In this document: one piece after another, positions 10,552-33,062 of the stretch | Layout: the number at the start of each line of letters is the position of its first letter | Numbering within the stretch: position 1 is the first letter of the stretch | Position numbers and translations under genes: made by a program | Assembly (NCBI GenBank): GCA_947176715.1 | Contig: CAMWRR010000002.1 | Span: forward strand, 1-35,912 | DNA: 35,912 nucleotides | Direction: 5' to 3' | Origin: an uncultured Rikenellaceae bacterium | Lineage (GTDB): Bacteria > Bacteroidota > Bacteroidia > Bacteroidales > Rikenellaceae | Notes under the pieces: generated by a model | Database searches by the model: none | Told to the model about the DNA's origin: nothing | Seen by the model: only the letters and a program-made list of their open reading frames with translations

Positions 10552-10582
10552 TTTGCCCCTTAATGCGGTTTCGCTATTTTTG
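10552..10582 (+). promoter_or_regulatory. Promoter TTTG-N19-TATTTTTG driving RNA element A
   Basis: TTTG 10552-10555, exact 19-nt spacer, TATTTTTG 10575-10582; no obvious conserved ORF directly follows. Confidence 0.7.
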
Positions 10583-10588
10583 CAGTGT

Positions 10589-10802
10589 CATGCGCGGGGC
10601 GTGTGATTACAGATAGTGTTTTCGCACCGGCCTTGAATTTTCGGCTAAGAGGAGACCGAACAACGCTTATTTTTAGGCTATGGTAAAGGCTAAGTCTATA
10701 TCATATCTATTCAAGTGTGGGGTTATCGTATCGTTTATTCTTCATGTGGTAGCTACGACCACCCGACAAGTAAACGAAATCGGCTCCACGCTTTTTCTTT
10801 TT
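10589..10802 (+). ncRNA. Putative structured RNA, element A (~212 nt), ending in stem plus U-tract
   Basis: Stem 10713-10723/10783-10793 (aagtgtggggt/gctccacgctt), inner stem tcgttta/taaacga (10731-10737/10771-10777), hairpin gtggt/accac, then TTTTTCTTTTT; paralogous to element B. Confidence 0.55.
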
Positions 10803-10844
10803 ACAAGCCCTCCGTCCGGAGCCGGGAGATAAAAACAGATTGCG

Positions 10845-10934
10845 ATGAAGAGAGTGCCGATATTGCTCCTTGCGTTGGCGTTTATGGCAGGGAACGGGCG
10901 AGTAGGGCTTACAGAAAAACCTGTCACGGCATAA
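10845..10934 (+). CDS. Small ORF, hydrophobic signal-like peptide (29 aa)
   Basis: MKRVPILLLALAFMAGNGRVGLTEKPVTA*; begins 22 nt after element A's ggagcc 3' strand. Could be a gene remnant. Confidence 0.3.
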   Translation: MKRVPILLLALAFMAGNGRVGLTEKPVTA

Positions 10935-11062
10935 ACGGTCATTGCGAACGACTGCTTCTTAGGCAATGTAAATTAATCATTCCGACGTATCAATATTGGT
11001 TTTTAGTGAATAAAAACGGACATTTGTAATCACAATACCCCGAGTGTGTTAAAAACATTTTT

Positions 11063-11070
11063 TATCTTTG
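11063..11070 (+). promoter_or_regulatory. -7 box TATCTTTG upstream of RNA element B
   Basis: TAnnTTTG match; no clear -33. Confidence 0.5.
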
Positions 11071-11076
11071 TGGAGC

Positions 11077-11301
11077 CGGGGTACCGGCCTACATATTCAA
11101 GATGAAAGTGTTTTGCTTTTGTCCCGCAAGGAGATCTGGTAAATTTTCTGAAACACGGGATAACACGACACTCTTCGCCTCGTATAGTCTGTATATAACA
11201 AATATACATGCTTACAGGTGTGGGGTATTGTTTTATTTGTGTTTCGGGCATACCAGAGCCTCCTTGCGAATAAAACCAACGACTCCACACTTTCTTTTTA
11301 C
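11077..11301 (+). ncRNA. Putative structured RNA, element B (~222 nt), ending in stem plus U-tract
   Basis: Stem 11216-11226/11282-11292 (aggtgtggggt/actccacactt), inner stem gttttatt/aataaaac (11230-11237/11269-11276, one unpaired-base ambiguity), then TTTCTTTTT; paralogous to element A. Confidence 0.55.
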
Positions 11302-11339
11302 ACCTGTATGTCCCGAGGAGTCGGGGACGATGTGGTCCT

Positions 11340-12338
11340 ATGGAGGTTGTTCTGCGGGTCGGTCCTGTCATTGCGGCTGTGCTTGCCGGTGCGGCTACGT
11401 GGTTGTCGTCAGGCCGTTCGGGTTACTTCGCCCGGTACTCCCCTACCGATGGCGAGGAGTACGGGAGGAGTCGTCTGAGGCGGACCTTTGCTGTAATGAT
11501 AGCCGTGTCGATATGCGGCACCGCGCTAGCCGTAGCGTGGGACTCCGGGTGCTTCCCGTCGGTATTGTCGGCTCTCGTGTCGGTCGGCGCCCTCGTCACG
11601 CTATGGCGTCGGCACGCAATAAGGAGGCATCTGGCCAATACCGTCGCCGCCGCCTTGGCACGCAACGTAAGGGAGACGGAGCGGCTACTCGTCGACGGGC
11701 GGTTGCGATTCGGATTCGTCCGCTACGAGAGCTGTTACCGCACCGTGTTACGCTCATTTCTCGATGCCGGCCCACTCTCGCGAAAAGAGACCGCCATACT
11801 CGATATGATGGCGTTGATGGACCGCACCTCGGCTCGCTCAGCGGCAGACGAGGCGGCGCTCGAACGGCTGTCTGCCGGGATGCCTTATGCCGAGGAGCAC
11901 GATACGGTCGACTCGCTGCTACGTGTCACCGGGGCCTACCTGTCGCCCGGGATATGCTCGGAGCTGGCCGCCCTTAAAGCCTCGTATTTCGAGACGGACG
12001 AGCTGTGGCCCATAGCCTTGTCGGATGCCGTCACCGAGGGCCGACCGTGCTATTACAGACACAGGGTCGCCGTCGTGCCCGTGGCCTTATGCGACGGCAG
12101 ACGTACGGCGGATGCCGACAGTGCCGAGGTGGCCGACCTGTATATATTCAACGACGCTATGGAGACGGTGGCCAAGAGCCGCAGAAGATTCATCCTGTCG
12201 GAGATGATAGCCGTGAAACAGACCGGAGCCTCATGCCTGTCGATAATATTCAGAAAATCAAACGAACCGTTGGTGATAGTCAGCGAGGAGGCGGCGGTGA
12301 TACGTGTTGTGGTGGAGAGGTTGCGTCACAGAAAGTGA
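11340..12338 (+). CDS. Hypothetical membrane protein (N-terminal TM helices, soluble C-terminal domain)
   Basis: 332 aa ORF with hydrophobic segments VGPVIAAVLAGAATWL, TFAVMIAVSICGTALAVAW, VLSALVSVGALVTLW; no family recognised. Confidence 0.65.
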   Translation: MEVVLRVGPVIAAVLAGAATWLSSGRSGYFARYSPTDGEEYGRSRLRRTFAVMIAVSICGTALAVAWDSGCFPSVLSALVSVGALVTLWRRHAIRRHLANTVAAALARNVRETERLLVDGRLRFGFVRYESCYRTVLRSFLDAGPLSRKETAILDMMALMDRTSARSAADEAALERLSAGMPYAEEHDTVDSLLRVTGAYLSPGICSELAALKASYFETDELWPIALSDAVTEGRPCYYRHRVAVVPVALCDGRRTADADSAEVADLYIFNDAMETVAKSRRRFILSEMIAVKQTGASCLSIIFRKSNEPLVIVSEEAAVIRVVVERLRHRK

Positions 12339-17548: not shown

Positions 17549-17630
17549 TGCGGATGAAGGGACTCGAACCCCCACGGCTTGCGCCACCAGATCCTAAGTC
17601 TGGCGTGGCTACCAATTACACCACATCCGC
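17549..17630 (-). tRNA. tRNA-Leu (anticodon UAG), CCA not encoded
   Basis: Reverse complement GCGGATGTGGTGTAATTGGTAGCCACGCCAGACTTAGGATCTGGTGGCGCAAGCCGTGGGGGTTCGAGTCCCTTCATCCGCA; anticodon stem CCAGA/TCTGG, loop CTTAGGA, long variable arm. Confidence 0.95.
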
Positions 17631-32978: not shown

Positions 32979-33062
32979 TGCTCAGGACAAGAATCGAACT
33001 TGCATGTCGAAATCGACACTACCTCCTGAGAGTAGCGTGTCTACCAATTCCACCACCTGAGC
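32979..33062 (-). tRNA. tRNA-Leu (anticodon CAG), CCA not encoded
   Basis: Reverse complement GCTCAGGTGGTGGAATTGGTAGACACGCTACTCTCAGGAGGTAGTGTCGATTTCGACATGCAAGTTCGATTCTTGTCCTGAGCA; anticodon loop CTCAGGA; long variable arm. Confidence 0.95.

Follow-up and report, generated by a model that had tools for sequence, protein, structure and literature searches.

Comparison within and across genomes confirms that two paralogous elements, A and B, which follow each other in a 35,912-nt stretch of an uncultured Rikenellaceae bacterium (the window), are members of a real multi-copy RNA family of the Bacteroidales with a length of ~220 nt. On balance, and with moderate confidence, we read this family from its sequence features as a multi-copy, cis-acting 5' leader that carries a terminator, that is, as a transcription attenuator, which probably acts as an on/off switch of transcription in front of genes for cell-surface proteins. 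B would lead the gene that starts at 11340, and A would be a decaying copy whose own gene has been reduced to the remnant of a signal peptide.

The window belongs to a 1.75-Mb genome that comprises 245 contigs (G000). The elements are preceded on their 5' side by a permease of the Asp-Ala exchanger type, a YebC-family gene and rpmH, the last of these assigned from sequence. Both elements were found where the first-pass annotation had placed its two structured, paralogous transcription units, and each has a promoter of the Bacteroidetes type, a strongly folding body of ~215-225 nt and a U-tract (Table 1). The distance that it had given from the -7 box to the U-tract was reproduced with ~209 nt for A and ~221 nt for B, and we recovered the outer stem (AAGTGTGGGG / CTCCAC[G/A]C) as well as the two inner stems that it had described, TCGTTTA/TAAACGA and GTTTTATT/AATAAAAC. 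Folding gave z-scores of -3.5 for A and -7.9 for B, while a covariance model of the family, in whose training set both elements are included, matched A at 10599-10801 (E 2.9e-21) and B at 11091-11300 (E 1.8e-34). These z-scores and model scores, together with the blastn homologues in other genera, show that the observation is more than chance. B is predicted as a single continuous rod that runs from its 5' end to its 3' end. In A, the 5' half of the rod is incomplete and the element looks like a degenerate copy; its predicted fold is dominated by the terminator helix (P 0.96), as expected of a copy that is stuck in the off state. Judged by its sequence, the 29-codon open reading frame behind A is probably what is left of a signal-peptide gene once led by this element. 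The 332-aa protein led by B gave no Pfam family and no homologue among 30 relatives. In both elements the U-tract is followed by a hairpin, and the loop region of this hairpin (GGAGCC in A, GGAGTC in B) complements the outer stem on its 3' strand. Simple scans for promoters and terminators told nothing about A and B, because the promoter type is outside their coverage and the hairpin has too long a loop for them.

Table 1. Sequence features of elements A and B, with positions in the window.
Feature	Position	Strand	Basis
A: promoter, TTTG (10552-10555)-N19-TATTTTTG (10575-10582)	10552-10582	+	sequence; family TAnnTTTG position
A: RNA body including U-tract, degenerate	10588-10802	+	covariance model, folding
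A: terminator helix, AAGTGTGGGG (10713-10722) with CTCCACGC (10784-10791)	10713-10791	+	sequence; family covariation
A: inner stem, ATCGTTTATT (10730-10739) / AAGTAAACGAA (10768-10778)		+	sequence; enclosed by terminator helix
A: U-tract	10792-10802		
A: hairpin 3' of U-tract	10810-10828	+	sequence; family covariation z 11.8
A: GGAGCC (10818-10823), complementary to GGCTCC (10782-10787)	element A	+	sequence
29-codon ORF after A, MKRVPILLLALAFMAGNGRVGLTEKPVTA	10845-10934	+	sequence; no Pfam match
B: upstream promoter-like sequence, TTG-N20-GACATTTG, i.e. TTGGTTTTTAGTGAATAAAAACGGACATTTG	10996-11026	+	motif before arm in family
B: 5' arm, CACAATACCCC (11031-11041) + GAGTGTGTT (11042-11050)	11031-11050	+	copy-specific complementarity
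B: partners of 5' arm, GGGGTATTG (11222-11230) and GACACTC (11167-11173)		+	family z 10.6 and 5.5
B: main -7 box, TATCTTTG	11063-11070	+	sequence; family TAnnTTTG position
B: RNA body including U-tract	11077-11299	+	covariance model, folding
B: rod closing stem, GAAAGTGT (11104-11111) with ACACTTTC (11287-11294)	11104-11294	+	family covariation
B: loop-loop helix, TCTGGTA (11135-11141) with TACCAGA (11251-11257)	11135-11257	+	7 bp
B: terminator helix, GTGTGGGG (11218-11225) with CTCCACAC (11283-11290)	11218-11290	+	sequence; family covariation
B: inner stem, GTTTTATT (11230-11237) / AATAAAAC (11269-11276)		+	sequence
B: U-tract, TTTCTTTTT	11291-11299	+	sequence
B: hairpin 3' of U-tract	11310-11328	+	sequence; family covariation
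B: GGAGTCG (11317-11323) with CGACTCC (11280-11286), perfect 7-bp match	element B	+	sequence
Gene led by B, 332 aa, N-terminus hydrophobic	11340-12338	+	ORF, Pfam, homologue search

Homologues with conserved stems, on which the existence of an RNA element had been made to depend, were indeed found in related genomes, both by blastn and with the covariance model. With A as the query, blastn of relatives matched four other genera, and a homologue as the query furnished further matches, in some genomes with two copies. An exact pattern (AGTGTT-gap-GTGTGGGG-gap-CTCCACRCTTT), searched over GTDB genomes, matched at least 120 stretches; the matches listed are mostly from Rikenellaceae/Alistipes and nearly all belong to Alistipes, Tidjanibacter, Rikenella or other Bacteroidales, and several stretches per genome are common. 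The pattern matches listed and the loci found earlier amount to 129 distinct copies, of which 124 were aligned. In these 124 pattern-retrieved copies the columns of AGTGTT, GTGTGGGG and CTCCACRCTTT are invariant by construction, from which the divergent copies found with the model are exempt. The covariance model was built from 102 copies, A and B among them, and the independent evidence is therefore provided by its matches in other genomes. It detected the family in 34 of 61 relatives with 0-12 copies per genome and gave six copies in the genome of the window, where A and B are thus two of at least six and the pair is not unique. At E <= 1e-6, 63 of 247 Bacteroidales genomes and 52 of 174 genera contain the family, together with 8 further genomes of the same class beyond the order. 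A divergent subfamily (AAGCGTT...GCGTGGGCTGTTGC...CCACGCTTTTTT) has the same architecture as the main family. Directly 5' of one copy (G005; L015 8423-9010) lies a tyrosine-recombinase-like gene, and the operon led by this copy includes SPFH and zinc-ribbon genes.

In agreement with the first-pass annotation, which had recognised no RNA family, the comparison with Rfam 15 gave no match across the element, be it for A and B, for a strong copy or for ~40 divergent loci, and the family is apparently undescribed. Within the window the scan returned only two tRNAs and nothing meaningful across A and B; tRNA-Leu genes lie on the minus strand at 17549-17630 and 32979-33062 (anticodons TAG and CAG). 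The suggestion of a 6S-like identity did not survive. In Bacteroides, 6S has been reported as one of the abundant noncoding transcripts, with product RNAs (PMC7366714). A 6S RNA or a 6S paralogue would fit in size and in its rod-like fold of ~220 nt with paired ends. However, 6S is rejected for a family that is not single-copy and near-universal but has up to 12 copies in one genome, is patchy and absent from many others (0-12 copies; 63/247 genomes), and whose copies precede genes. Neither RF00013 nor 6S-Flavo RF01685 matched in the window, at A and B or, over the relatives, at the other loci, although both models are weak for this clade: RF01685 matched none of the control genomes, and with RF00013 no 6S of Bacteroidales scored above the cut-off. 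We see next to no chance for this reading.

The covariation within the family far exceeds that of shuffled and slid controls, and it supports two different folds. In an APC-corrected de novo covariation analysis the top column pairs are Watson-Crick, and single column pairs occur with all four canonical types, for example AT 50, TA 26, GC 18 and CG 12. The helices recovered are the P2b arm (9 bp), a 7-bp loop helix, P3 and a 5' hairpin. The loop helix is paired in 98.9% of the family cells and appears in matched variants such as TGTGGAA/TTCCACA, TCTGGTA/TACCAGA, TCTGACA/TGTCAGA and others. For the rod fold, 91.8% of the cells are paired, with 555 two-sided changes compared with 193 in shuffled and 90-125 in slid controls. 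The terminator fold (GUGUGGGG/CUCCACAC) is paired in 92.8% and has 197 two-sided changes, compared with 72 and 37-74, respectively. When the partners were swapped between copies, the Watson-Crick fraction of P2b fell from 0.83 to 0.45 and that of the loop helix from 0.98 to 0.76. Although the shuffled controls leave the relatedness of the copies in place, the effect size and the slid controls make chance a very unlikely source of this covariation. Rod and terminator use common strands and are largely mutually exclusive; the family has a putative terminator and a putative antiterminator fold, each with covariation support of its own. Two covarying exclusive folds and conserved unpaired segments would also be expected of a ligand-binding riboswitch, in which the conserved internal loops form the aptamer and a metabolite or an ion sets the choice between terminator and rod. 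We consider this improbable, since the rod arms and the loop helix are highly variable in sequence, and the led genes are functionally unrelated, code mostly for surface proteins and give no pointer to one metabolite.

A leader is favoured over a free sRNA by the position of most copies elsewhere, a short way in front of a gene on the same strand. With a led gene defined as a same-strand ORF of at least 100 aa that starts within 260 nt, 96 of 127 loci have such a gene, at a median of 56 nt after CTTT (IQR 52-64); the stem and U-tract, an intrinsic terminator by sequence criterion only, precede a same-strand gene in 96/127 loci. By a simple heuristic, 70 of the 96 led genes (73%) look secreted, compared with 179 of 642 other ORFs at the same loci (28%; odds ratio 7), and a lipobox-like motif is present in 38 of the 96 compared with 58 of the 642. 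A Pfam analysis of 118 downstream proteins gave BspA-type LRR (23), DUF4988 (9), BACON (8), collagen repeats (6), fimbrillin-like (3), SPFH (3) and GYF (3) domains plus many others, showing that one leader type stands before many unrelated, mostly surface, genes. Many copies before unrelated genes, a patchy distribution and tandem duplicates could alternatively reflect a mobile or recombining promoter-leader cassette that persists because it spreads or gives strong transcription, its structure serving only the element itself. This we regard as very improbable, given that compensatory changes keep the helices across order-level divergence and that the pairing with the 5' region of the led gene, described below, is conserved; an unsystematic look noticed neither terminal inverted repeats nor an associated transposase.

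The earlier proposal had left the choice between a duplicated sRNA and paired leaders. The closeness of most copies to a same-strand gene speaks for the second, and arrays without genes keep the first alive. On contig C193 of the window's genome (L196 1-1480) we found five units in an array that repeats every ~297 bp and is gene-free between the units. A promoter box is present in units two to five and a U-tract in all five; units 2 and 4 share their rod arms, as do units 3 and 5, and promoter and 3' end are alike throughout. This array counts against a pure leader. A second array, on contig C5 of another genome (G022; L200 1950-2700), has a period of ~274 bp, likewise contains promoters and U-tracts and is again gene-free between its units. 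Such arrays, the canonical promoter and U-tract that every copy owns, and the multi-copy sRNAs known from Bacteroides (PMC11697453) would be in line with stand-alone, trans-acting, FopS-like sRNAs, for which the terminated ~220-nt RNA would be the product and the nearness to genes would reflect landing sites or a secondary role. We take this as a serious rival but hold it to be fairly unlikely: most copies have a same-strand gene at a constrained distance with secreted products enriched, a pairing across the U-tract is conserved, no conserved exposed seed was identified in the family, and closely spaced tandem copies fit poorly. At two loci (L266, that is G105:C706, and G210:C817) copies of the same orientation are only 33-41 nt apart, which leaves little room for a second promoter between them; from their arrangement they could possibly be double attenuators in one transcript. 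The family may thus act as a leader in most places and as a free RNA in some. On the 3' side of the C193 array lies a 333-aa gene (L196 1826-2827) that combines an HTH region with a SocA-like Panacea (antitoxin-type) domain and may be unconnected to the array, and a YpsA/SLOG-family gene is found near the array in G022.

Two further pairings reach outside the RNA. On the 3' side, CAACUCC, just 5' of the closing stem, pairs with a GGAGUUG loop beyond the U-tract, with a value of 0.876 for partners of the same copy compared with 0.773 for swapped partners (z 11.8). Divergent copies have the equivalents GATACCC/GGGTATC, GTTCCC/GGGAAC and AGCACC/GGTGCT. Because this pairing spans the U-tract, it makes sense only in read-through transcripts, and it requires that CUCC is free of the terminator. 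On the 5' side, an arm that precedes the main promoter and consists of CAATRCCCC and then GAGTGTTGTTCG complements GGGGYATTG and CGAACARCACTC of the RNA in a copy-specific manner (z 10.6 and 5.5). In one Alistipes genome, four copies carry the variants TATTG, CATTG and TCTTG, and each arm fully matches its own copy. Among 71 independent divergent copies, nine score above the 99% level set by non-self pairs, against an expectation of 0.7 (z 5.0), an example being GCAACAACACC with GGTGTTGTTGC.

In 113 of 117 copies the main promoter box TAnnTTTG lies where it is expected, on the 3' side of the arm, and the arm is therefore absent from the RNA that starts there. Since upstream genes often end in terminators just 5' of the arm, and since the complementarity is kept where the upstream gene is divergent, the arm seemed untranscribed. 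For an untranscribed arm, copy-specific complementarity would mean RNA-DNA pairing upstream of the element's own promoter. A corresponding reading as a guide RNA or bridge RNA was set aside after a promoter-like box had been found directly 5' of the arm. Of 114 copies, 13, including B, have a promoter-like sequence (TTG-N19-21-nAnnTTTG) within 35 nt 5' of the arm, compared with 0.57 expected; by inspection, most strong-arm divergent copies have an AnnTTTG box directly 5' of the arm, and a recognisable upstream promoter is absent from most pattern-selected copies. The variable columns of the arm contain 47 G-U and 20 A-C combinations, a count uncorrected for phylogeny that favours pairing of the + strand. 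In the simplest reading of these motifs, we infer two start sites for copies with an upstream promoter, of which the upstream one would give a transcript that begins with the arm.

From the two exclusive folds we infer attenuation with the following course. In the rod, the 5' half would pair with the 3' half, so that GAAAGUGU holds ACACUUUC and CACUC holds GUGUGGGG; this would block the terminator and polymerase would read into the gene. After read-through, the freed CAACUCC would pair with the GGAGUUG loop 5' of the start codon. In the alternative fold, GUGUGGGG would pair with CUCCACAC beside the U-tract, transcription would stop and the ~220-nt RNA would be released. Transcripts from the upstream promoter would carry a 5' strand that pairs with GGGGYAUUG, making the choice of the start site a plausible input to the fold. 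Tentatively, and with more doubt than trust, we extend this to a start-site-encoded attenuation: only upstream-promoter transcripts would carry the arm that pairs with the 5' strand of the terminator, and the promoter used would decide whether the gene is read. A further point against the attenuator is that the rod, whose closing stem likewise borders the U-tract, might itself terminate. Equilibrium folding predicts the rod for the short RNA, with a mean P of 0.82 for the closing stem and 0.04 for the terminator, and the addition of the arm lowers the predicted P of the closing stem to 0.20. When arm-plus and arm-minus RNAs were compared in this way, a simple antiterminator pairing was not dominant. 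These predictions, with the rod favoured, the terminator almost absent and the arm pairing not reproduced, count against an attenuator. Given these predictions, attenuation would call for co-transcriptional folding or for a factor.

Attenuator leaders of the terminator/antiterminator type form mutually exclusive folds, one with a stem beside a U-tract, ahead of a gene. The present family has the exclusive folds, the U-tract stem and the downstream gene in common with them. It differs in that a single leader type serves many unrelated surface genes, and in its extra pairings to the hairpin behind the U-tract and to the arm before the promoter. Such promoter- and terminator-crossing pairings point to an attenuation logic that is not described in the literature we found, and start-site-encoded attenuation is possibly a new principle. 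Among known Bacteroidales RNAs, FopS and GibS, the latter a Bacteroides RNA treated alongside 6S (PMC7366714), resemble the family in having several paralogues per genome, canonical primary-sigma promoters and terminators. FopS as described from Bacteroidaceae nevertheless differs: it is a ~65-70 nt RNA whose 5' end carries the R1' seed, with which it represses susC mRNAs in trans (PMC11697453), whereas the present RNAs are ~220 nt long, doubly folded and gene-preceding. Structured 5' regions have been reported in Flavobacterium (PMC9723704) and thousands of RNA candidates in human microbiomes (PMC8040213); a fragment of the present family may sit unrecognised in candidate lists such as the latter.

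The family would be a widespread regulatory RNA of gut Bacteroidales that is missing from Rfam and tied to surface proteins of the kind that meets host and phages, namely BspA-type leucine-rich repeat proteins, BACON/DUF4988 lipoproteins and fimbrillin-like proteins. With it, the switching of surface genes in Alistipes and its relatives, in which RNA regulation is little known, becomes directly testable. DUF805 (RF03081) and DUF805b (RF02914) are, like the proposed leaders, cis-regulatory RNAs of Bacteroidetes. They differ in their length of 35-68 nt, do not match in the window and elsewhere lie only after an element, without overlap and behind only 2 of ~40 scanned copies. At these two loci, DUF805b (L209 2258-2293) and DUF805 (L263 480-545) are found once each directly 3' of the element, where two RNA devices may act in series.
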